Assembly: GCA_945871455.1 (NCBI GenBank)
Contig: CAMBXJ010000007.1
Coordinates: 1 to 26,203 of the forward strand
Direction: 5' to 3'
DNA length: 26,203 bases
DNA from: Asaia bogorensis
GTDB lineage: Bacteria > Pseudomonadota > Alphaproteobacteria > Acetobacterales > Acetobacteraceae
The notes under the pieces are model-generated. The model was not told where the DNA came from, made no database searches, and worked only from the letters and a program-made list of their open reading frames with translations. The translations under genes were made by a program, and so were the position numbers. Positions 1,815-25,116 of this stretch are shown piece by piece. Within the stretch, counting starts at the first letter, position 1. The number at the start of each line of letters is the position of its first letter.

Positions 1815-1853
1815 GCTGCGTCCTTTCTGGCGCCGGTGTGTTTACGCCAAGTC

Positions 1854-3632: not shown

Positions 3633-3647
3633 CAGGTCCCCCGTCCT

Positions 3648-5357: not shown

Positions 5358-5362
5358 GGTGC

Positions 5363-5734
5363 TCAGCGTGTCTCGGCGTGGAAGGTTTTGGAAATGATGC
5401 GCCAGCCGTCGGCGAGCTTCACGAACGTCAGGTAGTCGGTGAAGTACCGCGGCGGGATCTGGCAGTTGACCTTGGCGAAGGCCGTGGTCGGGCTTGAACG
5501 GTCGATATGCACGATCCAGTCGTTGCGAGGAAGATCGGCGGCCTTGGCGGACCCTCGGCTACGGACCAGTTCAAACCATTTTTCCAGGGGCAGGTCGGCG
5601 AGCTTGCCGTCGGCGACGCTGAACAGGTGCGCCTCGGCGTGGAAGACGCGGCCGAGCTTGTCGGCGTCGCCTTCGTAGAGGCCGTCGAAATAGAGTTGGA
5701 GCGCGGCTTCAAGGTTGTGCAGGTCGGATGGCAT
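5363..5734 (-). CDS. NTF2-like / SnoaL-fold small protein (lumazine-binding-like family)
   Basis: A 123-residue single-domain protein of the NTF2-like superfamily. The N-terminal helical segment (NLEAALQLYFDGLYEGDADKL) leads into FHAEAHLFSV, and the C-terminal strands include FAKVNCQIPP, YFTDYLTFVKLADGWRIISKTFH, an arrangement typical of SnoaL/DUF4440/Lumazine_bd_2 proteins. Members act as small enzymes or ligand-binding partners, and no specific activity can be assigned here. The start ATG is preceded by GGGGGAA. It is the first gene of the apparent operon NTF2-GMC-tpsB-tpsA. Its position 5 bases before the GMC gene suggests a shared substrate or an accessory role to that oxidoreductase. Confidence 0.85.
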   Translation of the reverse strand: MPSDLHNLEAALQLYFDGLYEGDADKLGRVFHAEAHLFSVADGKLADLPLEKWFELVRSRGSAKAADLPRNDWIVHIDRSSPTTAFAKVNCQIPPRYFTDYLTFVKLADGWRIISKTFHAETR

Positions 5735-5862
5735 GGTTTCCCCCGGGTGGTCGGATTGTCGGGGGACAGCTTCGCTCCGGTTGGGTAGAACGACAAGGGT
5801 GGACGCACGCGACGCGGCCAGCCCGGACCTCGTGCGGCAATTCGGGGGAGAAGCATCCGCAT

Positions 5863-5877
5863 GGCGACGGCGTCGCC
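5863..5877 (-). terminator. Short GC hairpin directly after the PIN toxin gene
   Basis: GGCGAC / GTCGCC arms with a 3-base loop begin one base beyond the stop codon of the toxin gene. No T-run follows, so this is at most a weak or Rho-assisted end signal. Confidence 0.3.
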
Positions 5878-5878
5878 C

Positions 5879-6292
5879 CTACCACGCCCACGGATTGATC
5901 AGGCTCACACCCATCGGTTGGAAATCCACGACGTTGCGTGTGGCGATCGACATGCGATGCACGATCGCCGTTGCCGCGATCAGCGCATCGCGCTCCGCCC
6001 GCCGATTGGGGACATGGAGGCCGGCACAGCATTGGGCGACGTCCGTGTCGACGGAGAGAATTCGTCCCTCGAAAGCCGGCAGGACCGCGCCGTCAATCCA
6101 CGCGCGCAGAATAGCGCCTCGTTCGGCGTCGCGACGCTGCAACATCAATGTGCCCGCTTCGATTTCCAGAATGGTAATCGCCGACAGGAACAGGTCCGAC
6201 GGTTGCACACTATCCGCCCAGGCCGCGACCCTGGGATCGGTTCGGCTGCGCCGCCGCAGTTCCGACAGGACATTGGTGTCCAGCAGGACCAT
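5879..6292 (-). CDS. PIN-domain toxin (VapC/FitB-like ribonuclease)
   Basis: This 137-residue protein has the PIN-domain layout of type II toxins that cleave RNA. The acidic residues expected at the metal site are present: Asp5 in LLDTNVLSE, Glu43 in ILEIEAG, Asp102 in RDALIAATA and Asp123 in RNVVDF. The closest resemblance is to the FitB/VapC subgroup. The start ATG shares one base with the antitoxin stop (TGATG), so translation of the pair is coupled. With all four catalytic positions intact, the toxin looks functional. Its RNA target cannot be inferred. Confidence 0.92.
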   Translation of the reverse strand: MVLLDTNVLSELRRRSRTDPRVAAWADSVQPSDLFLSAITILEIEAGTLMLQRRDAERGAILRAWIDGAVLPAFEGRILSVDTDVAQCCAGLHVPNRRAERDALIAATAIVHRMSIATRNVVDFQPMGVSLINPWAW

Positions 6293-6549
6293 CAGTCCAG
6301 GTCCGCGGGACGCATGATGCCGCTGCCGAGGCGGATCGGCTCGAAGTCGATATCCTCCATTCCGGGCTGGTCCAGCATGTCCCGGATGGTCGGGCCGCCA
6401 CCCACAAGACGGCGATAGTCTTCGTGGCGCAGCAACACGTAGGCGGGTTCCCCGCGATCGGTGATGATCACGGGGCCGTTGTTCGCGGCGCGCTTGGCAC
6501 CGCTGACATCCTGGTTGAACTTCCGGCCGGACAGGATTGTGGCGGTCAT
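6292..6549 (-). CDS. PhD/YefM-family antitoxin
   Basis: This 85-residue protein is the antitoxin partner of the downstream PIN toxin. The N-terminal half (SGRKFNQDVSGAKRAANNGPVIITDRGEPAYVLLRHEDYRRL) has the PhD/YefM DNA-binding and dimerisation pattern. The C-terminal tail (DMLDQPGMEDIDFEPIRL) is the acidic segment that typically wraps the toxin. Family members repress their own promoter together with the toxin, and a candidate operator lies 19-41 bases upstream of the start. It overlaps the toxin start by one base. Confidence 0.9.
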   Translation of the reverse strand: MTATILSGRKFNQDVSGAKRAANNGPVIITDRGEPAYVLLRHEDYRRLVGGGPTIRDMLDQPGMEDIDFEPIRLGSGIMRPADLD

Positions 6550-6567
6550 GAGGGCCTCGCGGGCGGC

Positions 6568-6590
6568 GGATTGGATCCTACAATCCTACA
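6568..6590 (-). promoter_or_regulatory. Candidate operator/promoter of the toxin-antitoxin pair
   Basis: On the plus strand this stretch contains GGATTG-N7-CAATCC (6568-6586), a perfect 6-bp inverted repeat, and an exact tandem 8-bp repeat ATCCTACA at 6575-6582 and 6583-6590. On the coding strand TAGGAT occurs twice and could serve as a -10 element. The position 19-41 bases upstream of the antitoxin ATG fits an autoregulatory PhD-type operator. The assignment is inference from symmetry and position. Confidence 0.5.
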
Positions 6591-6678
6591 TGTGGATGCC
6601 GCCCGTTCAGGTCAAGCCATCTGGCGATCCGATCATGGCTCGCCTGGACCCCGGATGCGCCGTGGCGGCCCCCCTGAC

Positions 6679-7392
6679 TCAAACGCCCAACTGTCTCGCC
6701 AGATCCTCGATATCCGTCGCCACCACGTCCCATTCCTGGTCCGCGGTGAAATCGCGTACCTGGTTCGGCCCATATTCGTCCGGGCGAGGCCAGAACGCGG
6801 TCATCAGCCCGCATTTGCGCGCGTTCGCCAGATCGTTGTTGTGCGCGGCGGCCAGCATGACCTGCCCCGGCTCCAGGTCCATCATCGCGGCGACGCCCAG
6901 ATACGTCTCCGGATCCGGCTTGAAATGCATGAACAGGTCGGACCCGAACACCATGTCCCACGGCAGTCCGGCGTGCTTGGCCATATAGGTCAGCAACGAA
7001 ACATTGCCGTTCGACAGCGGCCCGATCACGAATTTCGTCTTCAGGCGGGTCAGCCCGGCGACCGAGTCCGGCCAGGGGTTCAGCCGGTGCCAACCCAGGT
7101 TGATATGCACCAGATCGGCCTCTGTCAGGCCGGTGATGCCGAAATCGGCGACCAGCTTGTCGAGCGATCCCCGGTGCAGCGCGTCCAGCTTGGTCCAGGG
7201 CAACTCTCCCTTGCGCACCCGGTCCATGGAGGGATGATACGAAGCCCGCCACGCATCCACCAACGCCGGCCAGTCGGCGGCGACGCCTCGCTGGCGCCCA
7301 TACGCGGTCAGGTCGGCGATCAGGCTGCCGCGCCAATCGACCACGGAGCCGAATGTGTCGAAGACAATCACGACCGGCAATTTCGTTGGCAT
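6679..7392 (-). CDS. Type II haloacid dehalogenase-like HAD hydrolase
   Basis: A 237-residue HAD-superfamily enzyme of the L-2-haloacid dehalogenase (type II) group, which hydrolyses 2-haloalkanoates through an aspartyl ester. The nucleophile is Asp12 in VFDTFGSVVDWRG. Motif II is LSNGN, motif III is the Lys in FKPDPETY, and motif IV is the AAAHNNDLANARK segment, close to the AAHxxDL pattern of true type II dehalogenases. The length is normal. The start has a textbook ribosome site (AAGGAGGAA, 4 bases upstream). Real dehalogenase activity versus a related phosphatase-like role cannot be settled by reading. It may be co-transcribed with the AsmA-like gene, 107 bases upstream, though a hairpin lies between them. 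Confidence 0.9.
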   Translation of the reverse strand: MPTKLPVVIVFDTFGSVVDWRGSLIADLTAYGRQRGVAADWPALVDAWRASYHPSMDRVRKGELPWTKLDALHRGSLDKLVADFGITGLTEADLVHINLGWHRLNPWPDSVAGLTRLKTKFVIGPLSNGNVSLLTYMAKHAGLPWDMVFGSDLFMHFKPDPETYLGVAAMMDLEPGQVMLAAAHNNDLANARKCGLMTAFWPRPDEYGPNQVRDFTADQEWDVVATDIEDLARQLGV

Positions 7393-7425
7393 GGGCTTCC
7401 TCCTTGTGCTGCGGCCGGATGCCAG

Positions 7426-7443
7426 CCCGGATCGCGCTCCGGG
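7426..7443 (-). terminator. Hairpin between the AsmA-like gene and the dehalogenase gene
   Basis: CCCGGA / TCCGGG arms with a 6-base loop lie between the AsmA-like stop and the dehalogenase start. There is no T-run, so it may be a weak terminator or processing hairpin. Confidence 0.25.
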
Positions 7444-7499
7444 TCAAGCCGGCCTCGGCTGGGCCGCATAGGGTCGGCAATCCCAACGGTCCGGGCGGA

Positions 7500-10400
7500 T
7501 CAGAACAGCCCGAATATTTCTCGCAGGAACCCGGGTGTCAGCGCGCTCAACGGGTTCACGAACACATCCGGGTCCTGGATCGGGCCACGCAACGTGTAGC
7601 GCGCGGCGAAGACTCCGCCGCCGGTTTCGGGGCTGAACAATTTGCCGACGAGCGGAATATTGCCAAGCAGCGAGTTAAAGAAATACGCCGGCACGATCGT
7701 GCCTTCCACATCCATCCTTTCGCCGCCCAGATCCAACCGTCCCTTCGCGGTCAGGCCCAACGATGCGCTGAACGCGCGGGCGTCGTTCAGTTGCAGGGTT
7801 TGATCATGCAGGGAAAACGGGGCCACGAGCTTGGAAAAACCGATCCCCGGTCCGCGCAGCACATCCAATAGCCCGTACAATGTCATCGACTGCAGCAGCT
7901 TGCCCAGCCCGACCGAGCCGCGGACGCGAAAATCCTCGATATTGGCCGATCCGACCAACGGATTGCCTCGCTTTGTGTCGTCGAACCTGCCGGACAATGT
8001 CAGCCGCCCGGCTTCCAGCGTCTTGACCGCATCCAGACCCTGCAGCAGGGAACCGGCATCCACGGTGGTCGCCGCCACATGGCGGATACCGCCGGACATC
8101 CCGATATCGAACGTGAAAGGCATATTGAGCCCGGTCAGGCCGGTGATCCCCGCCGAACGATAGATCCGCCCATCGTTGTTGGCCCGCGCCACGACGGACG
8201 ATGCGGCCTTGCCGCCCGCCAGCAGCACACGATCGAAGCGGGCGTTGATCGTCCAGGCGGGGTCGGGCGGCGGGTCCGGGGCGTTCCGGTCAATCGACGC
8301 GGTCTTCGCGGACAGTTTTGCGGCCAGGTCCAGCGTGCCGCCGGTGACCTCGATCGCGATCGGGCCGGCGGGTGGCAGACGGACGCGGCCCTGCGCGTCG
8401 GTGCGGCCCAGGACGGCACGTTCCAGGTGGACGAGCGACATCTTGCCATCGACCGTGTCGACCGTGGCGCGCAAGGACAGACCGGTACCTTCCACCTGGA
8501 TACGGTCGATCCCTTTCAGCCGGCCTTTGGAAACCAGCACCCGGCCTGTCCCCTTGGCTGGCACACCGGCCGGTTTCGTCCAGCCAATCGGTGTCACGGC
8601 AAGAACGACCGGCGTCAGATCCGCCTCAACGGCGATTTCAGATTCGCCGTTGCGTCGCTCGGTCAGGGTCGCGGTACCGGGGATCTCGCCGGCGAGCACA
8701 TTGGCCGGGTCCAGCCCGGCGGCCAGCAACTGCCGCGGAGTCGGCCGGCCGGTCACCACCATGCGGCGCACCACCTGGGTGGGTGGGCCGGGGCGAAAAT
8801 CCATCGTGCCATCGACCTGCACCGGAATGCCCGCCAGCAGCGTCTTGCCCTTGACGGTCAGCCCGTCATCGGTGACGCCCATCTCGAAATTGCCCTGGTC
8901 GATATCGCGGTCGGCCACCAGTCCCGCGAGGCGGACCTGCGTCAGGCGGACGGTGGCGCGGGTCACCACCTCATCGTCGCGCACATTGCTCTCCAGCGGC
9001 ACCACCACCGAAATTGTTGCGTTGACGTCGCCGGCCGGGTCCCGCAGGTCGACCGGATTCTTGTCCAGGATGCGCAGCCGGGGCTCCCGCAGCAGCCCGA
9101 TTGCATTGGCGAGCGAGCCGTTGGCGTCCCCCTGGATCGTCGCGATCTGGTCGCGCTGCGCCAGGCCGGTGATGCGGACCTTGCCGGATCGCACGGTCAG
9201 ATAGCCGTTGCCCTTGGCGCCGGCCTTCTGGCGCGCGCCACCGACCGTGATTTCCAAGGTGTCCGCATCCAGAACCCGCAGGCGCGCCTGGCCGCGATCC
9301 AGAGGGGGGACCGGGCGCAGCCAATGAACGGTCAGGTCGTCTCCATCCAGGGCGCCGGTGATGCGGGTGACAACCGTATCCCCAGATGCCTCGTCCACCT
9401 GCAACCCGATGTCGATCTGTCCGTTCCGTGCCATACCGGTGGTCACGTTTTCCAGAAGCCACGGCCGAGCGTTGGGTGCGAGGTCGGGGGGCCATAGGAT
9501 GGAGAGGTCGGTGAAGGCCAACTGGTCCAGGGCGACGGACAGCGCGGCTTCGATCCTGCCATCGTTGCGGGCGGCGGTGCCGGACACCTTCAGCAGGGTT
9601 GTCTGTGCCGCGGGGCGCGGCTGGATCCGAAATTCGGCGGTTTCGATGGTCGCTTGCCGATCGGATGCGGCGACGACCACGGTCGCCTCCACGAGCTTGG
9701 CGGTCCCGTCCCCCAGGGTCAATTTTCCGGTGCCGATCCGCGCGGTTATGCGGGTTTGGGTCGGCTCCAGTCCCATACCCAGATGCAGCTCCGCCCGCAG
9801 GCCGACCGGGGCATCGACGTGGCTGAGGAAAGCGAGTTTCGGCACGATCCTGGCCAGGGATGCGGGGGCAATCGGGGTCAGCGTGGCGTCAACGCGGGTG
9901 TGTTCCCCCCCGGCTTCGAGCACCGCATTCGCCGACAGAGTGGCCACCTCTGCACCGAGCGCCAGGGTCATGGTGCCAACCCCGGCCACGCCACCATTGG
10001 GGTTACGGGTCAGGGCAATGTTGGCATCCGGGGCATGCCAGGTCGCGGCCAACTGACGATCGACGATGGTCAGATCGGCGCCGTCTATCACCAAGCGGCG
10101 CATCTGACTGAACAGACCGCGCCGATCGTTCGCATCGCCGGACGCGGGCCGGGCAAATTCCGCCAGAAGGGTCTTGAGCGTCGGTCCTTCGGTTGCGTCA
10201 GCCGACGGGTCGCCAACCGCGGGCGCACCAACCGGGGGGGGCGCGGTCGGGGGCGCGTCCGTCATTTCGTTCAGACTGCCGATGTCCAGACTGAACGCGC
10301 CGTTCATCCCACGAATGATCCGCAGCTTCGGACCGATCATTTCCAGGGATCGGGGCACCAGCCGTCCCTGCAACAGGGCGATAAACGACACGGTCAGGTG

Positions 10401-10733
10401 CGCACTGGGAATATCGAGCAGGCGGTGGTCCGCGCGATCGGATACCACGACGTTCGACAGGCGCAGTTCCAGCGGATTGCCGACACCATGGCGGAATCCC
10501 TCCCAGCCGAGTTGGGCGCCACCGATGGCCATCCGGGTTGGTCCGTCGCTCTCGTTGACCAAGGCTTCCATGCGGGCGGCCACCCAACCGACATCGATCG
10601 GGCCCATGGACAGGCGCCAGGCCAGGCCGACCGCCAGGATTGCCACCACCACGACCAATGTCAGCGCGACAGTGGTCAGCCGATGGAGCAGCCTGCCAAC
10701 GGTCATCACCGCTTGACCCCGCAACCACCTCAT
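7500..10733 (-). CDS. AsmA/YhdP-like large inner-membrane-anchored protein
   Basis: This 1077-residue protein has one N-terminal membrane anchor (about residues 15-40, TVALTLVVVVAILAVGLAW) and a long periplasmic region of repeating beta-rich segments. The N-terminal part (ISAHL-type IPSAHLTVSFIALLQGRLVPRSLEMIGPKLRIIR) and the C-terminal part (FNSLLGNIPLVGKLFSPETGGGVFAARYTLRGPIQDPDVFVNPLSALTPGFLREIF) match the DUF3971/AsmA_2 pattern of alphaproteobacterial YhdP-like proteins. In enterobacteria such proteins (YhdP, TamB, YdbH) bridge the periplasm and move phospholipids to the outer membrane; the same role here is inferred. The start at 10733 has no clear ribosome site, and an internal ATG at codon 10 (10706) is an alternative. 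It is transcribed away from glnE with only 17 bases between the two starts. Confidence 0.85.
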   Translation of the reverse strand: MRWLRGQAVMTVGRLLHRLTTVALTLVVVVAILAVGLAWRLSMGPIDVGWVAARMEALVNESDGPTRMAIGGAQLGWEGFRHGVGNPLELRLSNVVVSDRADHRLLDIPSAHLTVSFIALLQGRLVPRSLEMIGPKLRIIRGMNGAFSLDIGSLNEMTDAPPTAPPPVGAPAVGDPSADATEGPTLKTLLAEFARPASGDANDRRGLFSQMRRLVIDGADLTIVDRQLAATWHAPDANIALTRNPNGGVAGVGTMTLALGAEVATLSANAVLEAGGEHTRVDATLTPIAPASLARIVPKLAFLSHVDAPVGLRAELHLGMGLEPTQTRITARIGTGKLTLGDGTAKLVEATVVVAASDRQATIETAEFRIQPRPAAQTTLLKVSGTAARNDGRIEAALSVALDQLAFTDLSILWPPDLAPNARPWLLENVTTGMARNGQIDIGLQVDEASGDTVVTRITGALDGDDLTVHWLRPVPPLDRGQARLRVLDADTLEITVGGARQKAGAKGNGYLTVRSGKVRITGLAQRDQIATIQGDANGSLANAIGLLREPRLRILDKNPVDLRDPAGDVNATISVVVPLESNVRDDEVVTRATVRLTQVRLAGLVADRDIDQGNFEMGVTDDGLTVKGKTLLAGIPVQVDGTMDFRPGPPTQVVRRMVVTGRPTPRQLLAAGLDPANVLAGEIPGTATLTERRNGESEIAVEADLTPVVLAVTPIGWTKPAGVPAKGTGRVLVSKGRLKGIDRIQVEGTGLSLRATVDTVDGKMSLVHLERAVLGRTDAQGRVRLPPAGPIAIEVTGGTLDLAAKLSAKTASIDRNAPDPPPDPAWTINARFDRVLLAGGKAASSVVARANNDGRIYRSAGITGLTGLNMPFTFDIGMSGGIRHVAATTVDAGSLLQGLDAVKTLEAGRLTLSGRFDDTKRGNPLVGSANIEDFRVRGSVGLGKLLQSMTLYGLLDVLRGPGIGFSKLVAPFSLHDQTLQLNDARAFSASLGLTAKGRLDLGGERMDVEGTIVPAYFFNSLLGNIPLVGKLFSPETGGGVFAARYTLRGPIQDPDVFVNPLSALTPGFLREIFGLF

Positions 10734-10750
10734 GGCCAGCCTGCCGCATC

Positions 10751-13711
10751 ATGAAGAACCTGGCCTTCTCTCTGCCCGAAATCTGGCCCGCGCCCCACGA
10801 TCCCGCTGCCGCCGACCGGCTGGTGGAGCGTTTCGCCGATCTGGGCCGCACCGAAGCCCGTCTCGCGACGCGTCCGGCCGCCTTGGCCCTGTTGCGATGC
10901 CTCGGCGGCAACAGCCCTTATCTGTCCGATCTGGCGATCCGCGAATCCGCGTCTCTGCGCCGTCTGATCGCGGAAGGACCGGATGGCGTGCTGCATGCGG
11001 AAATGGAACGGCTCGCGGCCACGCCGCCCGCCCAGCCGCGCGATCGGATCGCCGCGTCGCTGCGCCGAACCAAGCGCGTTGTCGCGTTGGCAACGGCGGT
11101 CGCCGATATCGGCAATCTGTGGCCATTGGAAACGGTCACGGCGGCCTTGTCCGGCCTGGCCGAGGCGACCTTGTCCCTGGCCGTCGCCCATCTTCTGCGA
11201 TCGGCTCATGACGCGGGAGAACTCTGCCTTCCGGACGGCGCCGATCCCGCCCGCGGCGGTGGGTTCACCGTGCTGGGCATGGGCAAACTGGGTGCGCGCG
11301 AGCTGAATTATTCGTCTGATGTCGACCTCGTGCTGCTGTACGATTCCGCCGCGCCGATTTATACCGAGCGGACGGCCGGTGACGCCATGGGTGGTTTCAT
11401 GTCCCGGGTTGCGCGGGGTCTGGTGTCGCTGATGGAAGCCCGGGACGCCGACGGGTATGTGTTCCGCACCGACCTGCGCCTGCGCCCCGATCCCGCCGCG
11501 ACCCCACCCGCAATCTCCCTGACGGCGGCGATCACCTATTACGAAAGCATGGGCCAGAACTGGGAACGCGCGGCCATGATCAAGGCCCGCCCGGTGGCCG
11601 GCGATCTTGCGGTGGGCACGGAGTTCCTGGAGGCGATCCGGCCGTTTGTCTGGCGTCGTGGCCTGGATTTCGCGGCCGTCGCCGATATCCATGCGATGAA
11701 GCGGCGGATCGACCAGCACAAGGGCACCGCCCTGAACGGGTCCGACGACCCCGTCGCCCGGATCGCCGGGCACAACGTCAAGTTGGGCGAGGGGGGGATT
11801 CGGGAAATCGAATTTCTGGTGCAGACCTTGCAACTCGTTTGGGGTGGGCGCGATCCGGTGTTGCGCGACCCGACGACCCTGGGCGCGTTGCGGTTGTTGG
11901 TGCGGGCCGGTCACGTGCCGCGCAATGTCGCCGCGGAGTTGGAAACCGCCTACCGCTTCCTGCGTCAGGTCGAGCATCGATTGCAGATGGTGGCCGACCG
12001 CCAGACGCACGAACTGCCGGTGAAACCGACCGATCTGGCGCGGATCGCGACCTTCATGGGGTATGCCGATCCCCCCGCCTTCGCCCACGCGCTGCTGGAC
12101 CAGCTCGCCAATGTGCGGCTTCGGTATGCGGAAGTGTTCGAACTGGTGCCGGACCTGCCGGACGGCATGCCAACCGGCCCCGAACTGGATTTTCGCGGGG
12201 ACGGTCCGGCGCCGAATACCACCCTGGCGGCACTGCGCGGGCTGGGATTCGGGGCGCCCGAGCGGATCGTCACCGCCATTCGCGGCTGGCAGGCGGGGCA
12301 TGTCCGCGCCCTGCGATCCATGCGCGCCCGCGATCTGATGGCGACCATGCTACCCTCCATTCTCGCCCGTCTCGGCGCTCAGGCGCATCCGGACGAGACG
12401 TTCAACCGCTTCGACCGGTTCCTGGCGGCGCAGCCCGCCGGCGTGCAGTTGCTGTCCCTGTTTCAGCGCAACCCCTCCCTGCTGGAACGCATCGCCGCGG
12501 TTCTGGGTGCCGCGCCCACCCTGGCTGAGTACCTGGCGCGCCATCCCAGCGCCCTGGAAGGCCTGCTGACCCAGGAGGAGGAGATCCCGCCGCCCCGGCG
12601 TCTGCGAGCCCAACTGGGTGACGCCAAGCAGTTGGAAGACGTGATCGAAACGATCCGCCGGACCGTGAAAGAAGCGGATTTCTTCGTTTCCGTGGGAACG
12701 ATGGAAGGCTGGCTGGACACCGACGGCGCCGCCGAACGACGCACCGCGATGGCCGAGGCGGCGCTGGCGGCGCTGCTGCAACCGGTGATGAAGGATTTCG
12801 CCACACGGTTCGGCCGGGTGCGGGGCGGCGGCATGGTGGTGGTGGCGTTGGGAAAGGCCGGCGGACGGGAGATGATGGCCGGGTCCGATCTCGATCTGAT
12901 GCTGATTTACGACCACCCGGATGACGTCACGGAAAGCCGGGGTGGCGCCCGCAACATGCCGGCGAGCCAATGGTTCGTTCGCGCCGCGCATGCCTATGTG
13001 GCCGCGGTGACCGCCCCGGGCGTGGAGGGGCAACTCTATGCCGTCGATATGCGGCTGCGCCCGTCCGGCAACAAGGGGCCGGTCGCCGTGTCGTTGGCCG
13101 GGTTCCGCCGCTACCATGCCGAAGACGCCTGGACGTGGGAGCGAATGGCGCTGACCCGGGCGCGCGTGGTGGCGGGACCGGTGGCGCTGCGGCGCAAGGT
13201 GGAAGCCGCGATCGCCGAAGCCATTGGCGGCGCCGGAGACCCCGCGCAGGTCCGCGCCGACGCGGCCTCCATGCGGGCTCGGATGCTGCGGGAGCTGCCT
13301 TCCGATGGTCCGTGGGATGTGAAGCAGCGGCCCGGAGGCCAGGTCGAGGTGGAGTTCGTGGCCCAGGCGCTGCAACTGATCCATGGCCGCGACTATCCCG
13401 GCGTGTGCGCCCCCACGGCGCGGGTGGCGCTGCGACGCCTGGCCGAGGCCGGCGTGCTGCCGGTCGAGGACGCCAATCTGTTGATCCAGGCCGATTGCGT
13501 CTGGCGCACGGTGCAGGGGATGCTGCGCATCACCGTCGGGCGGGACGGGACAGCGGACCTGCCGGACATCACCGCGTCCCTGCTGCTGCGCGCCTGTTCG
13601 GCGGCCGGCGCGGACGCGGTTGACTTGGCGGGCCTGCGCGTCACCCTTGACGCCATGGCGAAACAGGTGCGCGCGATCTTCGTGCGTCATATCGGGGAGA
13701 TCGGGACATGA
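10751..13711 (+). CDS. glnE: Bifunctional glutamine synthetase adenylyltransferase/deadenylyltransferase
   Basis: This 986-residue enzyme adds AMP to, and removes it from, glutamine synthetase in response to PII, controlling nitrogen assimilation. It carries two nucleotidyltransferase domains. The N-terminal (deadenylylating) one has GMGKLGARELNYSSDVDLVLLYD at about residue 175, and the C-terminal (adenylylating) one has VALGKAGGREMMAGSDLDLMLIYD at about residue 696. Each is followed by its helical GlnD/PII-type accessory segment (EGGIREIEFLVQTLQL and PGGQVEVEFVAQALQL). The length matches the family. The ATG at 10751 (MKNLAFSLPEIW) is chosen because the open frame upstream runs into the divergent AsmA-like gene and lacks family character; no clear ribosome site precedes it. 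The stop overlaps the bcp start by 4 bases (ATGA). Confidence 0.96.
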   Translation: MKNLAFSLPEIWPAPHDPAAADRLVERFADLGRTEARLATRPAALALLRCLGGNSPYLSDLAIRESASLRRLIAEGPDGVLHAEMERLAATPPAQPRDRIAASLRRTKRVVALATAVADIGNLWPLETVTAALSGLAEATLSLAVAHLLRSAHDAGELCLPDGADPARGGGFTVLGMGKLGARELNYSSDVDLVLLYDSAAPIYTERTAGDAMGGFMSRVARGLVSLMEARDADGYVFRTDLRLRPDPAATPPAISLTAAITYYESMGQNWERAAMIKARPVAGDLAVGTEFLEAIRPFVWRRGLDFAAVADIHAMKRRIDQHKGTALNGSDDPVARIAGHNVKLGEGGIREIEFLVQTLQLVWGGRDPVLRDPTTLGALRLLVRAGHVPRNVAAELETAYRFLRQVEHRLQMVADRQTHELPVKPTDLARIATFMGYADPPAFAHALLDQLANVRLRYAEVFELVPDLPDGMPTGPELDFRGDGPAPNTTLAALRGLGFGAPERIVTAIRGWQAGHVRALRSMRARDLMATMLPSILARLGAQAHPDETFNRFDRFLAAQPAGVQLLSLFQRNPSLLERIAAVLGAAPTLAEYLARHPSALEGLLTQEEEIPPPRRLRAQLGDAKQLEDVIETIRRTVKEADFFVSVGTMEGWLDTDGAAERRTAMAEAALAALLQPVMKDFATRFGRVRGGGMVVVALGKAGGREMMAGSDLDLMLIYDHPDDVTESRGGARNMPASQWFVRAAHAYVAAVTAPGVEGQLYAVDMRLRPSGNKGPVAVSLAGFRRYHAEDAWTWERMALTRARVVAGPVALRRKVEAAIAEAIGGAGDPAQVRADAASMRARMLRELPSDGPWDVKQRPGGQVEVEFVAQALQLIHGRDYPGVCAPTARVALRRLAEAGVLPVEDANLLIQADCVWRTVQGMLRITVGRDGTADLPDITASLLLRACSAAGADAVDLAGLRVTLDAMAKQVRAIFVRHIGEIGT

Positions 13712-14172
13712 GTGTTGCGGAAGGGGATCAGGCTCCGGACTTTGAGATGCCGGCCAGCGGCGGACGGACGGTCAGTTCCGCGGCGCTGCGGGGCAAGCCC
13801 TACGTGCTGTATTTCTACCCCAAGGCCAACACACCAGGTTGCACCACCCAGGCCTGCGGCTTCCAGGAAGCGTTGCCGCAACTGGGTGGGATCGGCCTGG
13901 ACGTGATCGGCGTGTCGCCGGACAAGATCAAGCCGATCGAGAATTTCGCCGCGAAGTATTCCCTGACCTTCCCGCTGGCATCCGACGAATCCCACGCGGT
14001 GGCGGACAAATACGGCACATGGGTCGAGAAATCGATGTACGGCCGCAAGTATATGGGCATGGAACGCAGCACGTTCCTGGTCGGCGCCGATGGCAAGATC
14101 GCCAAGATGTGGCGCAAGGTCAGCGTCAAGGGTCATGCGGCGGATGTGCTGAAGGCGGCACAGGCGCTATAG
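13708..14172 (+). CDS. bcp: Thioredoxin-dependent peroxiredoxin, Bcp/PrxQ family
   Basis: A 154-residue cytosolic thiol peroxidase that reduces hydrogen peroxide and alkyl hydroperoxides using thioredoxin. The peroxidatic Cys45 sits in the motif NTPGCTTQAC, with the resolving Cys50 five residues later, the spacing of atypical 2-Cys Bcp/PrxQ enzymes. The AP-DF start (GDQAPDFEMPASGG), VLYFYPKANTPGC and ERSTFLVGADGKI segments are all standard. Its ATG overlaps the glnE stop by 4 bases, so the two are probably translated together, an arrangement that may tie antioxidant supply to glnE expression only by transcription. No separate promoter was seen. Confidence 0.95.
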   Translation: MSVAEGDQAPDFEMPASGGRTVSSAALRGKPYVLYFYPKANTPGCTTQACGFQEALPQLGGIGLDVIGVSPDKIKPIENFAAKYSLTFPLASDESHAVADKYGTWVEKSMYGRKYMGMERSTFLVGADGKIAKMWRKVSVKGHAADVLKAAQAL

Positions 14173-17006: not shown

Positions 17007-17054
17007 TAGGCAGGGGTATGCGGCACTGCAGCAAAACCGACAGACAAGGTGGCG

Positions 17055-17978
17055 ATGCCTGACCAGCGCATCCTCGTCGTCAAGCTGGGTGCGTTCGGCA
17101 ATGTCATCCTCTCCCTGGGTCCTTACGCGGCGATCCGCCGGCACCATCCCGGGGCTGAGATAACGGTCCTGACCACCGAGCCATTTGCCGATTGGTTTGC
17201 CTCCTCACCCTATTTTGACCGGGTTCTGATAGACCAAAAGCCATCCTGGTGGAACATTCCCGGGGTGCTGCGGTTACGCCGAGCGCTGATGGAGGGACGG
17301 TTCGACCGGGTTTACGATTTGCAGACATCGGGGCGGTCATCCCGCTATTTTCGCCTGTTTCCGCACGCGCGCCGCCCGGCGTGGTCGGGAATCGCGCCCG
17401 GTTGCTCGCTTCCCGACCGCAATCCGCTGCGCAACACCTGGCACGACCATGAACGCCAGGCCGAGCAACTGCGCCAGGCGGGGATTGACACTGTCCCGCA
17501 GCCCGATCTGTCCTGGTGCACGGGCAATGTCGCCCGGTTCGGCCTGCCACGCGACTATGCGCTTCTGGTGCCGGGCAGTTCCCCCGGACGGCCGGCCAAG
17601 CGCTGGCCGGTGGACCGATACGCCGCACTCGCCCGCGAACTGCTGAAGCGCGAGATCACGCCAATCGTGGTCGGAAGTCGCGGTGAAGGCGCATTGGCGG
17701 CGGAGATCGACGCGGCAATCAACCTGACCGGACAGACCGATTTCGGCGATCTGGCGGAATTGGCCCGACGCGCCTGCCTGTCCGTGGGCAATGACACCGG
17801 ACCAATGCATCTGATCGCGGCCGTCGGATGCCCGTCGGTCGTGCTGTTCTCTCACGATTCCGATCCTGTGCTGTGCGCGCCCCGGGGGCCGTCGGTCACT
17901 ATCCTGCGCCGGCCGGACCTGTCCGGGCTGCCGGTGGAGGACGTGGTGACCGCCCTGCCCCGGCTGGTCCGGACCTGA
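17055..17978 (+). CDS. Family 9 glycosyltransferase (heptosyltransferase-like)
   Basis: A 307-residue GT9 enzyme related to the ADP-heptose:LPS heptosyltransferases that build the lipopolysaccharide core at the inner membrane. The N-terminal KLGAFGNVILSLGPYAAIRRHHP corresponds to the family's xGDxxL segment. The nucleotide-sugar site is in SVGNDTGPMHLIAAVGCPSVVLF (Asn246-Pro250), and PGSSPGRPAKRWP matches the PGs-xxxKRWp motif. ATG 17055 is chosen over a GTG two codons earlier because AAGG lies 5 bases upstream of the ATG. The stop shares one base with the start of the downstream exporter gene. The donor sugar is not certain; GT9 proteins outside core clusters may act in other surface glycans. 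Confidence 0.88.
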   Translation: MPDQRILVVKLGAFGNVILSLGPYAAIRRHHPGAEITVLTTEPFADWFASSPYFDRVLIDQKPSWWNIPGVLRLRRALMEGRFDRVYDLQTSGRSSRYFRLFPHARRPAWSGIAPGCSLPDRNPLRNTWHDHERQAEQLRQAGIDTVPQPDLSWCTGNVARFGLPRDYALLVPGSSPGRPAKRWPVDRYAALARELLKREITPIVVGSRGEGALAAEIDAAINLTGQTDFGDLAELARRACLSVGNDTGPMHLIAAVGCPSVVLFSHDSDPVLCAPRGPSVTILRRPDLSGLPVEDVVTALPRLVRT

Positions 17979-19348
17979 TGGAAGCAGCGCCGAACCCTTC
18001 CGCAACGCCGGATGGATTGCCATTCCCGCAGAGAGGCTGGGCCATCCTGACCATTGGACTGGGCCTGACCCTGGCGGTGCTCAACGGCGCCATCGCCAAT
18101 GTCGCCCTGCCGGCAATCGCGCGCGACGTGCAGACCACGGCGGCGAACTCCATCTGGGTGGTCAACGCATTCCAACTCGCGGTGACCGTGTCCCTGCTGC
18201 CGCTGTCGTCCCTGGGCGAGATTTTCGGCTATCGGCTCGTCTATCGCTGGGGCCTGGTGGTGTTCACCATCGCTTCCGTTTTCTGTGCCCTGACCGATTC
18301 GCTGCCCGTGCTGATCGCCGCCCGCATCCTGCAAGGCTTCGGCGCCGCCGGCATCATGAGCGTCAACAGCGCCCTGATCCGCTTCATCTATCCTCGGCGC
18401 TGGCTGGGTCGCGGGGTTGGGATCAATGCCACGATCGGCTCCATCGCCTCGGCCGCGGGGCCCAGCGTGGCGTCGGCGATCCTGGCCGTGGCGCCATGGC
18501 CCTGGCTGTTCGAGGTCAACGTGCCGCTCGGTGTCGCGGCCGCGGTGATCGCCTGGCGCGCTTTGCCCGACACTCCGCATTCCGGCACCAAATTCGACAT
18601 GATCAGCGCGGCACTCCAGGCCGTCGCCATCGGCAGCCTGTTGATCGCGATCTCCGAGCTTGGTCATGGCGACACCCTGGCGCATGTCTCGGTCCAGTTC
18701 CTGGTCGCCGCGGTCGCCGGCACGTTCCTGGTCATGCGGCAGATGGCGCGGACATCCCCCCTGCTGCCGGTGGACCTGCTGCGCATTCCATTGTTCGCGC
18801 TGTCGGTCGTGACCTCCATCTGCTCCTTCATCGCGCAGTCCATGGCGCAGGTCTCGCTGCCGTTCCTGTTCCAGGACCGCTTGCATCTGGACCAGGTGAT
18901 GACCGGACTGCTGATGACGCCCTGGCCATTGACCGTCGCGGTGTGCGCGCCCTTCGTCGGCCGGCTGGCAGATCGGTATCCGGCGGGCATCCTCGGCGGC
19001 GGCGGCATGATCCTGATGAGCCTCGGCCTTGCCGCGCTCAGCCTGCTGCCCCCCGACCCATCGACCTTCGACATCGCCTGGCGGATGACGGTGTGCGGCC
19101 TGGGATTTGCGTTCTTCAACACCCCGAACAACCGAACCTTGCTGACCTCCGCGCCGCCCGCCCGCACCGGCGGCGCCAGTGGCATGCAGGCCACCGCCCG
19201 TCTGTTCGGCCAAACCATCGGCGCCGCCATCGTCGGCATGCTCTTCACCGCTCGGCCGGACGACGGCACGACCTGGACCCTGGTGCTCGCCTCTATATTT
19301 GCCGGTGTCGCGGCCATCATCAGTTTCAGCCGACTTGCCGCGCGGTAA
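17978..19348 (+). CDS. MFS exporter, DHA2 family (14-TM, EmrB/QacA-like)
   Basis: A 456-residue inner-membrane transporter with about 14 predicted hydrophobic segments, the DHA2 drug:proton antiporter type. The first helix region LTLAVLNGAIANVALPAIA, the first loop LSSLGEIFGYRLVYRWG (motif A region) and RILQGFGAAGIMSVNSALIRFIYP (motif C region) are typical. Substrates of this group range from antibiotics to bile salts and siderophores, and none can be assigned. ATG 17978 is chosen because it overlaps the glycosyltransferase stop by one base (TGATG); longer frames to the left lie inside that gene. A GNAT acetyltransferase follows after 22 bases. Confidence 0.92.
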   Translation: MEAAPNPSATPDGLPFPQRGWAILTIGLGLTLAVLNGAIANVALPAIARDVQTTAANSIWVVNAFQLAVTVSLLPLSSLGEIFGYRLVYRWGLVVFTIASVFCALTDSLPVLIAARILQGFGAAGIMSVNSALIRFIYPRRWLGRGVGINATIGSIASAAGPSVASAILAVAPWPWLFEVNVPLGVAAAVIAWRALPDTPHSGTKFDMISAALQAVAIGSLLIAISELGHGDTLAHVSVQFLVAAVAGTFLVMRQMARTSPLLPVDLLRIPLFALSVVTSICSFIAQSMAQVSLPFLFQDRLHLDQVMTGLLMTPWPLTVAVCAPFVGRLADRYPAGILGGGGMILMSLGLAALSLLPPDPSTFDIAWRMTVCGLGFAFFNTPNNRTLLTSAPPARTGGASGMQATARLFGQTIGAAIVGMLFTARPDDGTTWTLVLASIFAGVAAIISFSRLAAR

Positions 19349-20097: not shown

Positions 20098-20142
20098 TCA
20101 TTTTCTGTCTTCTTGGGACCGAATGCTCCCTGGAGGTGGACT

Positions 20143-22146
20143 ATGCCCAGCCTGGCCGAACCGCGTGGACTACCGTCGCTATTTTCCTTTCGCATCGGAT
20201 TTCGTCTCGCGCTCGGCTTTTGCGCGATGCTGGTCATGGTCGTCGGACTAGGGTTGCTGGGCGCGAGGGATGTGACCTCCACCGCCCGCGAGAGCGCCCT
20301 GATATACCGGCATCCGTTCACGGTGACGCGGAATCTGGCGATCGCGCGATACTCCTCATTCTCTTTGTTCGATCTGGTTCGCACAGCCGCGGTGGACAAA
20401 ACCATTCAGTTCGATACCGGAAATAAGTCGCGGTTGCTGCAAGACCTGCAAAATGCGGTCGATGCCGGGGTGGCAGCGTCTTTGGGCCCAAAGGCCGACG
20501 GTCAGGCCGTGCGAGACGCGGTAGCACCCTTCGTCGCCGGTGTGGAGCAGGCCGCAAGCCTGATCAGCCAGGGCAGGCGAGAGGAAGCCCAGCGCTTCAT
20601 CACGGATGACCTGACCAGGTTGTTTGCGGCTGCGACCGGGTCGATGACGAAGGTCCTGGCATTCGCCAGCAACAATGCAGCGGAACTCGCCGCCCATAGC
20701 CAGGCCACGGCCGATGGCACCGTCCGGATGACTTGGATCTTCACCGCCGCCGCGTTGGTCGTGGGGCTGCTGGTGACTGTACTGACCGCTCGCAGCATCA
20801 CCAGGCCGCTCGCCGGTTTGCGGCAGGACATGGAGCATCTGGCCGCGGGTGAGCGGCAGATCGACGTCCGAGAGGCGGCGCGGCGTGATGAGATCGGCGA
20901 CATGGGCAAGGCCCTGCTGGTACTGAAAGACAACCTGGTCGCCGCGGATGCCGTACAGGCCGAGCAGGCCGCCCATCGGGCGCGCGGCGCCGAGGAGCAA
21001 GCCGCCGCGATGGCGCGGATGGCGGACACGATCGAGAGCGAGACCGTGGCGGCGCTGAACGAAGTGAGCAAGCGTGCCGCCGAAATGAAAGACACCGCGA
21101 ACGGCATGAGCGCGCGCGCCGAAAGCACCACTCGATCCGCCCAGGCCGCCACGGAAGCCGCTAACGAGGCCCTGTCCACGGTCCAAACGGTGGCCAGCGC
21201 CGCCGAAGAACTCGCCGCCTCGATCCGCGAGATCAGCGGCCAGATGCACCAGTCCACCACGCTGGTCGGTCAGGCGGTGACCGCGGGTGGGGAGGCGCGC
21301 GGCACCATCGAAGCGCTGAACGAAACCGTGATGCGCATTGGCGCGGTCGCCGACATGATCGGGGAAATCGCCGCCAAGACCAACCTGCTGGCGCTCAACG
21401 CGACCATCGAGGCGGCCCGCGCCGGTGACGCCGGCAAGGGCTTTGCCGTGGTCGCGTCGGAGGTCAAGCAACTGGCGGCGCAAACCGCCCGATCCACCGG
21501 CGAGATTTCCCAGCATATCAACGAAGTTCGGGCCGCCACCAACGCGTCCGTCGCAGCCGTGGGTCGTATCGAGGAGACCATCACCCAGATCAATGCCGTG
21601 GCGGGATCGATCGCCGCCGCGGTGGAGGAACAGGGCGCGGCGACCGCGGAAATTGCCCGGTCCGTGGCGCAGACGGCAGAGGCCGCCAACGCCGTCACCA
21701 ATCGCATCCAGGACGTGTCCGACGAAGCGAAAGGGACCGGCGCGGACGCCACGCATGTGCATGACACGGCGGCGAACCTGGCCAATTCGGTGTCCGATCT
21801 GAAGCACGCGCTGGTCCGGGTGGTGCGGACGTCCAGCGATGACGTCGATCGCCGGCAGGCGGAGCGGTTCGGGATTGATCTGCCCTGCCACCTGACGATC
21901 GGGTCCGAATTGCGGGTCGCGCGGCTGGTCGATATCTCCACCGGCGGGGCCGCGATCCGGGATGGCGGCACGATGGCGCCGAACACGCGGGGCAAGCTGC
22001 GGATGGCGGGCGTCGGCTTCGAATTGCCGTTCGTTGCGCGCGAGTCCGACGACGGTCTGCTGCACGTCGCCTTCGAGCTGGAGGGCGACATGCTGGAGAA
22101 ATTCTCCGCGGTTCCCGAGCGCCTGGCGATGCGCGCCGCCGCCTGA
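20143..22146 (+). CDS. Methyl-accepting chemotaxis protein with C-terminal PilZ domain
   Basis: A 667-residue transmembrane chemoreceptor. TM1 is at about residues 25-45 ([18 protein letters not shown]), followed by a helical periplasmic sensor of about 150 residues. TM2 is near residues 198-220 ([19 protein letters not shown]), then a HAMP domain ([21 protein letters not shown]). The long signalling coiled coil has its conserved hairpin tip at about residues 407-425 ([21 protein letters not shown]). The C-terminus is a PilZ domain with both c-di-GMP motifs: Arg571-x3-Arg575 (RQAER) and Asp597-x-Ser599-x2-Gly602 (DISTGG). Such receptors let c-di-GMP modulate chemotaxis, as described for an Azospirillum receptor. 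The start has an ideal ribosome site (GGAGGT, 5 bases upstream). The radical SAM-glycosyltransferase gene follows after 51 bases. Confidence 0.94.
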
Positions 22147-22197: not shown

Positions 22198-25116
22198 ATG
22201 TCCCAAGTCAACCTGTTCACCGCGCCACAGCGGCTGCGTCGTTTGCAGATCGAGATCACCACCGGCTGCAACCTGCGCTGCGTCGGGTGCCAGCGCACCA
22301 TCGGCATGGCGGCCGGCACTTGGCGTAACGCCCATATGCCGGTGCAGCGCTTCGCCGCGGTTATCGCGAACGCGCCGCCCGCCGATGCCATTGTCCTGCA
22401 AGGCATCGGTGAGCCGACCCTGCACCCGAAGCTGCCGGACCTGATCGCCGCCGCGCGGGCATCCGGCAAATTCGGCGTCATCAGCTTCAACACCAACGCC
22501 CTCGCGCGAGAGATCGACTACTACCGCCACCTGCGCCAGATCGGGCTGAACCATATCAGCGTGTCGGTCGACAGCCTCGACCCGACAACCGCCGAAGCGT
22601 TGCGGGGGGGCACAGATGCCGCCGAACTGCGCGCCGCCATCCCCGCATTGCTGGAATTGTTCAGCGGACTGACCCTGTCGATCGTACTCAGTCGGCGCAA
22701 CATCGCGGAACTGCCCGGGCTTATCACGGCCTTGCACGGACTGGGTGCTCGGGTAATCGAAATCCAGCCGCTGGTCAGCTACGCGCCATCCACCGAGGCC
22801 ATGGCGCTGGACCGCTCCGAACTCCGGTCCGCCGCCGCGACGATCGCCGCCATGCGCCAGCGCCTGCCGGATCTGACCCTGCTGCCGGCCGCCGCGCTGA
22901 CGCCGGACGGCAACCGCTGCCGCAGGCCGTTCCGCGCCGCCTATGTCACGGTCGGCGGTTTCCTGACTCCGTGCTGCCTGACCAACGACCCCGACCTGTT
23001 CGGCCGCGTCAATCTGGCGGACGTCTCGTTCCAGCAGGCATGGCACTCGCCTGGGGTCCGGCGCTTCCTGGAGTCCTATTTCGACGCGGAACCGGAAATC
23101 TGCCGCGGCTGCGCGTTCAATCCCTCCGGCGCCATGGCGCCCGCGCCCGTCGTGGTGGCGGACGCGCAGCGCCAGCAACAGGCCGGCCATCTGGATCGCG
23201 CGGAGGCCGGCTACCGTGCCGCGCTCGACGCGGCGCAGTCGGGGGAAGCCTTGCAGGGCCTTGGTCTGGCGCGATTCCAGCGCGGCGATACGGCCGGTGC
23301 GTTGCCGTTGTTGCAGGCGGCCGATGCCCTGTCCCCAACACCGCGCCTGACCCACAACATCGCCACCGTTCTCGCCACGCTCGGCCGCCTGCCGGAAGCG
23401 ACCGCGTTGCAGCGGCGGAATGTGACCGAGCATCCGGAATATGTGGCTTCCTACCACGCATTGTCCGCGCTGCTGGAAGCGACCGGGGATCGCGGCGGGG
23501 CGGCCTGGGTCGCGCTGTCCCTGGCGGAACGGGCGATCCCAGGCGGGCAGGAGGCGATCATCGCGGCCGCTGTCGGACGCGCCGCGGCGATGGATCCGGG
23601 CCATGCGGCACTGGTTCGGGTGGCCAACCGGTTGCGCATCGCCGGTCATCAGAGTCAGGCATTGCGTTTGCTGGATGCACGCCTGGCGACCGATCCCGCC
23701 GATCTGGGCGCGCGTCTGTCGCGGGCCATGGCTCGCCTGGCTGTTGTGCACGGATCGGCAGTGGAAATCGCCGAACGTCGCGCCGCCTACACCGCGGAAA
23801 TCGGCGCCTTGGAACGCCAGGTGGCGCAAGCGGACGCGGCGGCGCTGATTGCGGGGTCGGATCAGGTGGGGACCGCGAAACCGTTCTATCTTGCGTATCA
23901 AGGCCACGACGACCGGGCGTTGCAAGCCGCTTATGGCGGGATCGTCAGCCGCATGATGGCCGAGCGCGGACAGACCGGCTGTGGTGGGATTCGGGTTCGC
24001 CGGCCAGGGCGCATCCGGGTCGGCTTCGCCACCGCGTATATGCACCTGCACTCGATCTCGAAACTGTTCGGCGGTTGGATCCGACACCTGGATCGGGATC
24101 GGTTCGAGGTCACGCTGTATCATCTGGGCGAAGGACAGGACGCAATGAGCGCCGATCTCGCCCGCCACGCCGATCGGTTCCATGTCGGACCGGCGGATGA
24201 GGCGGAATGGATGCGCCGGATCGCCGCCGATGCCCCGGATGTGCTGATCTATCCAGAGATCGGCATGCACCCCACCGCGGTCCGCCTGGCCTGCCTGCGT
24301 CTGGCGCCGGTGCAATGCGTCGCGTGGGGACATCCCGTCACCACGGGCCTGCCGACGATCGACTACTTCCTGTCCAGCGACCTGATGGAGCCGGAAGATG
24401 GCGAGCGCCACTACACCGAACGGTTGATCCGCCTGCCCAACCTTTCCATCCACTATGAACCCTTGCCCGATCGCGGCGGACGCATCACGCGATCCGCACT
24501 CGGCGTGACGGACGATTCGGTTGTCTATGTCTGCTGCCAGTCGCTGTTCAAATACCATCCGCGCGACGATGGGGTTTTGGTGGCGATCGCCGGCCGGGTG
24601 CCCGCTGCCCGGTTCCTGTTCATCGGCGATCCTCGGAACGATCCCAATGCGCGGCTGCTTCGGGCCCGCCTGGGTGCCGCGTTTGCCGCGGCGGGCCTCG
24701 ATCCCGCCCGCCATCTGCTGTTCGTGCCGCCGGTCGATGCGGCGGACTTCTTCTCCCTGCTGCGGGCGGGAGATGTGTATCTGGACAGCGTCGGCTGGTC
24801 CGGCGGGAACACGACGTTGGAAGCGGTGACGTGCGGCCTGCCCATCGTGACCTTGCGTGGCCGTTTGATGCGCGGCCGACACAGTGCCGCGATCCTGACC
24901 CGGGTCGGGGCCACGGACTGCATCGCGGCCACCGCGGACGATTACGTGAACCTGTCGGTGGCGCTGGCCGACCCGGAGGCACGCCGCCGGAAAGCGCACG
25001 TGATCCGGGACGGTGGGAAGCGGCTGTTCGGCGATCTGGCTCCGGTTCGGGCGTTGGAAGCTTTTCTGATCGACGCCGTCGCCGAGGCATCCAACCCATC
25101 CCTTGCCGCCGCCTGA
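22198..25116 (+). CDS. Radical SAM/SPASM-like + TPR + GT41 (SPINDLY/OGT-like) fusion protein
   Basis: One uninterrupted 972-residue frame with three parts. Residues 1-311 are a radical SAM module: Cys24-x3-Cys28-x2-Cys31 (CNLRCVGC) for the SAM iron-sulfur cluster, GIGEPTLHP, and a C-terminal Cys set (Cys241, Cys259, Cys260, Cys302, Cys305) resembling a SPASM/twitch cluster site. Residues about 320-480 are TPR-like helical repeats (AGHLDRAEAGYRAALD, LGRLPEATALQRRNVTEHPEY). Residues about 595-972 are a GT41 glycosyltransferase: His618 in LHSISKLF aligns with the OGT catalytic His, then GHPVTTGLPTIDYFLSS (711 onward), Lys785 in SLFKYHP, and GGNTTLEAVTCGLPIVTL (869 onward) for the nucleotide. GT41 enzymes glycosylate Ser/Thr (or Asn) of proteins; SPASM enzymes usually modify peptides or proteins. 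The combined role here, perhaps modification of a motility or surface protein, is inference. The ribosome site is weak. Confidence 0.9.
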   Translation: MSQVNLFTAPQRLRRLQIEITTGCNLRCVGCQRTIGMAAGTWRNAHMPVQRFAAVIANAPPADAIVLQGIGEPTLHPKLPDLIAAARASGKFGVISFNTNALAREIDYYRHLRQIGLNHISVSVDSLDPTTAEALRGGTDAAELRAAIPALLELFSGLTLSIVLSRRNIAELPGLITALHGLGARVIEIQPLVSYAPSTEAMALDRSELRSAAATIAAMRQRLPDLTLLPAAALTPDGNRCRRPFRAAYVTVGGFLTPCCLTNDPDLFGRVNLADVSFQQAWHSPGVRRFLESYFDAEPEICRGCAFNPSGAMAPAPVVVADAQRQQQAGHLDRAEAGYRAALDAAQSGEALQGLGLARFQRGDTAGALPLLQAADALSPTPRLTHNIATVLATLGRLPEATALQRRNVTEHPEYVASYHALSALLEATGDRGGAAWVALSLAERAIPGGQEAIIAAAVGRAAAMDPGHAALVRVANRLRIAGHQSQALRLLDARLATDPADLGARLSRAMARLAVVHGSAVEIAERRAAYTAEIGALERQVAQADAAALIAGSDQVGTAKPFYLAYQGHDDRALQAAYGGIVSRMMAERGQTGCGGIRVRRPGRIRVGFATAYMHLHSISKLFGGWIRHLDRDRFEVTLYHLGEGQDAMSADLARHADRFHVGPADEAEWMRRIAADAPDVLIYPEIGMHPTAVRLACLRLAPVQCVAWGHPVTTGLPTIDYFLSSDLMEPEDGERHYTERLIRLPNLSIHYEPLPDRGGRITRSALGVTDDSVVYVCCQSLFKYHPRDDGVLVAIAGRVPAARFLFIGDPRNDPNARLLRARLGAAFAAAGLDPARHLLFVPPVDAADFFSLLRAGDVYLDSVGWSGGNTTLEAVTCGLPIVTLRGRLMRGRHSAAILTRVGATDCIAATADDYVNLSVALADPEARRRKAHVIRDGGKRLFGDLAPVRALEAFLIDAVAEASNPSLAAA

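Follow-up and report, generated by a model that had tools for sequence, protein, structure and literature searches.

Background

The OGT-SPINDLY proteins of bacteria and of plants and animals combine a glycosyltransferase domain of family GT41 with tetratricopeptide repeats (TPRs). Here we describe a gene of Asaia bogorensis (22198..25116, plus strand) whose 972-residue product, P0001, differs from these proteins by an additional N-terminal radical S-adenosylmethionine (SAM)/Twitch enzyme of about 315 residues and shares about 20 % identity with them. The gene lies in a stretch of 26,203 nucleotides (contig CAMBXJ010000007.1 of assembly GCA_945871455.1, positions 1 to 26,203), all of which was analyzed and which we refer to as the window. 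We know of no HMW1C-like N-glycosyltransferase that contains TPRs or a radical SAM domain. FlmG of Caulobacter resembles the fusion as we propose it to work, being a cytoplasmic protein whose TPRs bind the substrate and whose GT-B-like domain modifies it; however, its substrate is flagellin, and the term radical SAM does not occur in the main text of the article describing it (PMC7591256).

SkfB, SuiB, CteB and anSME, radical SAM enzymes that modify peptides and proteins, differ from the fusion, which has no N-terminal RRE domain, is joined to a glycosyltransferase and has a candidate substrate free of cysteine, so that no thioether product is expected. Alike in one respect is BtrN, the Twitch-type dehydrogenase of butirosin biosynthesis, in which four cysteines serve one auxiliary cluster according to the excerpted text of PMC6231123; the corresponding cluster of the fusion is predicted from its sequence. 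By analogy, the fusion may be likened to an FlmG- or HMW1C-type transferase to which a Twitch radical SAM enzyme has been added. We propose, with a confidence that falls just short of even, that it is a cytoplasmic bifunctional protein-modifying enzyme by which a repeat protein is glycosylated and the same glycoprotein undergoes a radical step before export.

Results

Architecture of the fusion protein

The frame is uninterrupted over 972 codons from ATG 22198 to the TGA stop at 25116, as an earlier sequence-only reading of this DNA had stated, and the residues singled out by that reading (Cys24/28/31, His618 and Lys785) all stand where it placed them, as do its second Cys set, at Cys241/259/302/305, and its GGNTTLEA loop, at 869-876. 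The parts of the gene are all on the plus strand. The radical SAM core occupies residues ~12-235 (22231..22902), with Pfam Radical_SAM (PF04055) matching residues 18-172 at 63 bits against a cut-off of 29.5, and includes the CxxxCxxC motif of Cys24, 28 and 31 (22267..22290), the predicted site of the SAM-binding [4Fe-4S] cluster from the sequence and the homologue alignment. The first strand of the core starts at residue 13 and no domain stands before it; thus an N-terminal RRE domain, a trait of sactisynthases of ribosomally synthesized and post-translationally modified peptides, was not found in the fusion. PF04055 above its cut-off together with CxxxCxxC, and PF13844 above its cut-off together with a GT-B fold and the active-site His and Lys, place the protein by sequence in both the radical SAM superfamily and GT41.

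The core is followed at residues 241-305 (22918..23112) by an auxiliary-cluster domain with the pattern CX12GX4C ... CX2C. The sequence-only reading had called this part SPASM-like, a likeness that holds at the profile level (SPASM PF13186, 31.4 bits against a cut-off of 21.5) and fails at the ligands: a full SPASM domain has seven motif cysteines and two auxiliary clusters, and only four of the seven are present here, hence Twitch. Cys241, 259, 302 and 305 provide the predicted ligands of one auxiliary cluster, which is what defines the Twitch domain as a truncated SPASM (definitions as given in the excerpted text of PMC6231123), and by cysteine count the domain is Twitch-type. Cys260 is extra to the motif, and no cysteine lies between residues 305 and 595.

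Helical repeats of TPR type probably extend over residues ~318-512 (23149..23733). The TPR region of the sequence-only reading finds backing in the helix pairs of a structure model and in an alignment with the TPRs of SPY/OGT, not in the Pfam scan of the fusion itself, where TPR_14 scores 17.8 bits and thereby stays under its cut-off of 23.5; TPR Pfam matches are present in many of the listed homologues. The GT41 (GT-B) catalytic region covers residues ~605-965 (24010..25092), with two stretches of PF13844 above cut-off (56.8 bits against 25). It includes the predicted nucleotide-sugar loop WSGGNTTLEA at residues 867-876 (24796..24825), assigned from its sequence and from the conservation of W867, S868 and G869. 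The NCBIfam NGTferase model NF049992 scores 52.7 bits against a cut-off of 1000, which leaves the protein outside the HMW1C/N-glycosyltransferase group.

An AlphaFold2 model built from a 33-row alignment (predicted local distance difference test 91.3; predicted template modelling score 0.67) begins with an N-terminal alpha/beta domain, followed by the helix pairs at ~318-512, then by a linker of helices and, at the C-terminus, by a further alpha/beta region. The single domains are modelled with confidence; at a template modelling score of 0.67 their mutual placement, including any common TPR groove, is unreliable. In structure comparison, residues 313-970 resemble OGT/SPINDLY folds, and the top matches of residues 1-317 are peptide-modifying radical SAM enzymes, tied among themselves.

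Recurrence, descent and conservation

A protein search, read from its table, found PF04055 and PF13844 together in 98 of the 120 listed homologues (the window's own P0002 included), bearing out the claim of two well-conserved catalytic parts on one polypeptide. The listed fusions mostly match over nearly the full length at 41-94 % identity. For the GT41-domain tree, 137 of 211 rows were kept after thinning at 78 % identity, the root was placed at the midpoint, and the GT41 piece of locus L033 was labelled fused by hand as the 110th fused row. All 64 fused rows of the tree fall in a single clade of 72 rows with a Shimodaira-Hasegawa-like approximate likelihood ratio support of 100, and the fused label changes 8 times on the tree versus 45.7 times in shuffles. 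The topology is compatible with one gain of the fusion followed by several losses or by short gene models; the 8 rows of the clade that lack the radical SAM part may in some cases be such short models.

Recurrence in many genomes and metagenomes, together with the single clade, rules out a misassembly or chance joining, the misjoin that the sequence-only reading had asked to be checked. Split genes as the normal state were also rejected, since in the sole split case found (L033 of genome G018, a metagenome-assembled genome, MAG) the TPR linker is interrupted by a frame break. No plasmid record covers 80 % of the fusion query, and no viral contig encodes a relative of the fusion.

The distribution is patchy. 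Fusion matches at E 1e-140 occur in at least 4 of the 395 genomes sampled from the window's order, which without exception belong to its genus, and at E 1e-125 in at least 2 of the 385 genomes of a class sample, the window's own genome counted; both counts are lower bounds, as the best two candidates per genome were scored. At E 1e-125, matches also occur in 4 of the 23 genomes of a second order, that of genome G535. Among the carriers that have names are Magnetospirillum fulvum, Siculibacillus lacustris and a MAG of Telmatospirillum.

Residue conservation was read from an alignment of 94 rows, P0001 included, out of 121 proteins (P0001 plus the 120 listed); P0002, as the window's own protein, and 26 others that lack CxxxCxxC in the first 120 residues or fall outside 850-1060 residues were left out. 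Cys241, 259, 302 and 305, His618, Ser619, His712, Trp867, Ser868 and Gly869 are invariant (94/94), Lys785 and Asn871 are each kept in 93 of the 94, and Cys260, which adjoins Cys259, in 87. The conservation expected of the Cys and His/Lys residues is thus present at both active sites. Cys24/28/31 are likewise found in 94/94, a count that is partly circular since the motif was a criterion for selecting rows. Among the 109 rows of the tree set labelled fused by sequence comparison, five lack CxxxCxxC, and these gene models start downstream of the motif or at a contig end. The GxGEP motif is retained in homologues down to 42 % identity.

The sequence-only reading had picked out the union of these enzymes as the best candidate for an undescribed system in the window. 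In the titles and abstract starts of the literature searched on the subject, with subscription papers mostly outside the search, we found no description of the fusion. Some members have nevertheless been named by JGI as SPINDLY transferase and radical SAM enzyme at once; annotation pipelines have already met the fusion, and to them it is not new.

Separate radical SAM genes beside GT41 were considered and rejected: in 79 loci, the only matches beyond the fusions are short (66-203 residues), one obtained with P0146 and all others with P0132, and because both of these proteins begin with TPRs the matches are not evidence of radical SAM genes. P0132 and P0146 are free-standing relatives (46 % and 39 % identity) in which TPRs are followed by a radical SAM part without GT41, and this order suggests a wider association of the radical SAM family with TPRs. 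When the free-standing radical SAM profile was run across the phylum at E 1e-50 (best five or fewer candidates per genome), the window alone matched among 398 genomes.

Repeat-protein genes beside the fusion

A telling arrangement is that of M. fulvum, with four genes overlapping by a few bases. The gene of an RTX calcium-binding protein (partial, at the contig end; PF00353, 127 bits) is followed there by those of an ABC exporter and the fusion and by a gene whose product combines TPRs with two stretches of GT9. The fusion starts there at GTG 4878, inside the end of the exporter gene. In a second lineage (locus L030, locus L031 of genome G535, and genome G805), the fusion lies no more than three genes from a divergently read, Cys-free repeat protein of 2391-2617 residues with about 15 % Thr; an edge fragment of such a protein near the fusion in L029 (G804) went unflagged in the gene-order count below. 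The L031 fusion is flanked by a 430-residue protein that has two hydrophobic stretches but matches no Pfam family, and, on the other strand, by a GDSL-like hydrolase (8657-9949 and 12924-13772), and both have relatives in L029. In a Rhizobiales MAG (L034), the gene next but one to the fusion, beyond a TPR-GT41 gene, encodes an RTX repeat protein which by its coordinates is the 9334-residue open frame of G1170:C54. The radical SAM part of the L034 fusion is 26.5 % identical to that of the window, and the best segment of the whole match reaches 47 %.

Gene order was counted in 78 of 79 loci (L086, whose GT41 frame is not long enough, was left out). Of the 11 fused loci, 4 have an RTX or T/S-rich repeat gene no more than three genes away, versus 7 of the 67 unfused GT41 loci. 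Directly adjacent repeat genes were found in 1/11 fused loci (20 slots) and 6/67 unfused loci (132 slots), against none in 708 control slots; as the controls are single slots further away in the same loci, the adjacent figures are the like-for-like comparison. Among the unfused relatives, L068 (Desulfobacteraceae, 2-12444) encodes in a row an RTX protein, a TPR-GT41 protein, a TPR-sulfotransferase, ABC and HlyD proteins and a GT4 protein, an arrangement resembling a pathway that puts a sulfated glycan on a repeat protein leaving by type I secretion. The unfused L035 branches at the base of the fused clade, where the tree is unresolved, and adjoins a T/S-rich protein whose RTX hit is marginal (23.2 bits versus 23).

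Fusion and repeat protein in the same genomes

The repeat protein of the Telmatospirillum type has a period of 46-47 residues and no cysteine. We used this protein itself as the query, at E 1e-15; a PF00353 count alone was dropped as a marker of the substrate, since this protein shows only one PF00353 stretch. Within the window's genus (33 genomes), the repeat protein was found in 5 of 6 fusion-bearing genomes versus 0 of 27 others (Fisher 2.5e-5), and within the order of G535 (23 genomes) in 4/4 with the fusion versus 1/19 without (Fisher 5.6e-4), or 4/4 versus 0/7 when restricted to the genus of G535 (Fisher 0.003), all three values being uncorrected for relatedness. Siculibacillus has both proteins, and the window's own genome holds a copy of at least 1282 residues (L160) at the end of another contig.

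In three genus-mates of the window (G030, G018 and G032) a GT41 gene follows the repeat gene without a gap, an independent sign that GT41 enzymes are likely to act on the repeat protein. At L152/L153 (G030) and L154 (G018), apart from the fusion, a T/S-rich repeat gene of 2872 residues leads into a frame of ~2000 residues that carries an array of three GT41 matches. In a fourth genus-mate, G031, a single open frame on the plus strand (L159, 7169-14500) comprises the repeat protein and a C-terminal GT41 stretch, either a real fusion or a MAG artefact. Cysteine is absent from the repeat proteins counted (0/2394, 0/2872 and 0/1282 residues) and from the partial M. fulvum RTX protein (0/952).

Gene neighbourhood in the window

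Directly upstream of the fusion, on the plus strand, lies a chemoreceptor (20113-22146, start probably ATG 20143) with HAMP and MCP signalling domains and a C-terminal PilZ domain; downstream, on the opposite strand, is the gene of an SMP-30 protein. Locus L027, whose protein is 89 % identical, has the same gene order, which says little. Further upstream, a GT9 glycosyltransferase frame (17049-19348, plus strand) overlaps the listed start of an EmrB-like major facilitator superfamily transporter by ~150 bases. A two-partner-secretion (TPS) pair on the minus strand (3-3632), ~18 kb from the fusion, consists of an exoprotein, of which the start is present before the window end truncates it, and a transporter of ShlB/FhaC type. 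As a candidate substrate this pair was rejected: it has no relative in 139 loci (L023-L161; E 1e-6; up to 10 kb on each side of the fusion). Family scanning covered 30 proteins other than P0001, drawn from the window and from loci that are fused or related, and found no flagellar family among them, most neighbours in fused loci being outside that scan.

Discussion

According to the proposed scheme, the TPR region would dock a long, Cys-free, Thr/Ser-rich calcium-binding repeat protein, still unfolded, in the cytoplasm, and the GT41 domain would attach a sugar to many Thr/Ser residues along the repeats. The radical SAM/Twitch domain would act on this glycoprotein as well. The likeliest reaction is a dehydrogenation, in which a hydroxyl of a side chain or of the sugar would be oxidized by two electrons and the fully ligated auxiliary cluster would take the second of them; type I secretion would then export the product to the cell surface. 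We infer that the repeat protein is glycosylated, that both activities share one substrate, and of what kind the radical reaction is. The best-supported candidate substrate is not flagellin but a secreted RTX/Thr-rich repeat protein, to which the M. fulvum operon, the neighbourhood in the Telmatospirillum group and L034, and same-genome presence in the window's genus and in Siculibacillus point indirectly.

Several observations weigh against this proposal. The nearest genes in the window encode the chemoreceptor, a GNAT protein and the SMP-30 protein, with no repeat protein beside the fusion, and 7 of the 11 fused loci, several of them at contig ends, have no flagged repeat protein within three genes. 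Like-for-like adjacency, seen in 1/11 fused loci, keeps our confidence marginally below even. Relatedness could explain part of the co-occurrence values. G014, a genome 64 % complete, carries the fusion without a repeat-protein match, and two of the five genus-mates with a match lack an intact fusion frame, which is frame-broken in G018 and truncated by a contig end in G031. The Telmatospirillum-type repeat was not found in G1167 (M. fulvum) or G1170 (the L034 genome), both of which have another RTX kind near the fusion. Conversely, in an order sample of 385 genomes (versus 395 in the fusion search, from which the four carriers were taken), the repeat family occurs without the fusion in 38 of 381; these matches are mostly shorter and weaker, except that G347 without the fusion has one as strong as those of carriers (E 8e-213). 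The repeat family can therefore exist without the fusion. Weakest in the proposal is the radical step, a guess from cluster type and fold, in a radical SAM subfamily whose functions are hard to predict according to the excerpted text of PMC6231123.

For that step, the Cys-free repeat proteins speak against thioether formation and Cys-type formylglycine, and a hydroxyl oxidation on protein or sugar is favoured because the four-Cys cluster, predicted to be fully ligatable, resembles that of the dehydrogenase BtrN; epimerisation or C-C bond formation is possible. In a rival reading, the radical chemistry would fall on the sugar instead of the protein. If the radical SAM part were comparable to BtrN, DesII and BlsE, which act on small molecules, it would oxidize, deoxygenate or epimerise a nucleotide sugar or the attached glycan, and GT41 would transfer or hold that sugar, an alternative that we consider somewhat unlikely. 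We regard it as very improbable that GT41 alone is active, with the radical SAM part surviving as a structural or regulatory relic: the 8 rows of the fused clade without this part, some of them perhaps short models, are cases where GT41 apparently works alone, but the four auxiliary cysteines are kept in 94/94 rows and GxGEP persists in distant homologues.

The fusion might instead modify flagellin, pili or a TPS adhesin, the link to repeat proteins then reflecting shared ancestry or joint inheritance of surface genes. FlmG, with TPRs and a GT-B domain, glycosylates the flagellins of Caulobacter (PMC7591256), and HMW1C-type enzymes are reported to glycosylate TPS adhesins; the window does hold a TPS exoprotein with its ShlB-type transporter, the repeat protein is not next to the fusion there, and the co-occurrence counts ignore relatedness. 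Against this stand the absence of TPS-pair relatives from the 139 loci with their flanks of up to 10 kb, the lack of a flagellar family among the annotated neighbours (most of those in fused loci being unannotated), and the M. fulvum operon and the two within-genus patterns, which point to the repeat protein. We judge a substrate other than the repeat protein to be improbable.

Conclusions

We tentatively put forward, at a confidence somewhat below even, a two-chemistry enzyme that would glycosylate giant exported calcium-binding repeat proteins and carry out a radical SAM reaction on the same glycoprotein. Both halves come from classes known to modify proteins or peptides. Magnetospirillum fulvum MGU-K5, a named isolate, has enzyme, candidate substrate and exporter in one operon. 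The system allows a test of how TPR-fused modifiers (GT41, GT9, sulfotransferase and radical SAM) share one scaffold substrate. If the proposal is true, bacterial protein glycosylation would have a radical-dependent branch whose targets are proteins thousands of residues long and not small peptides.

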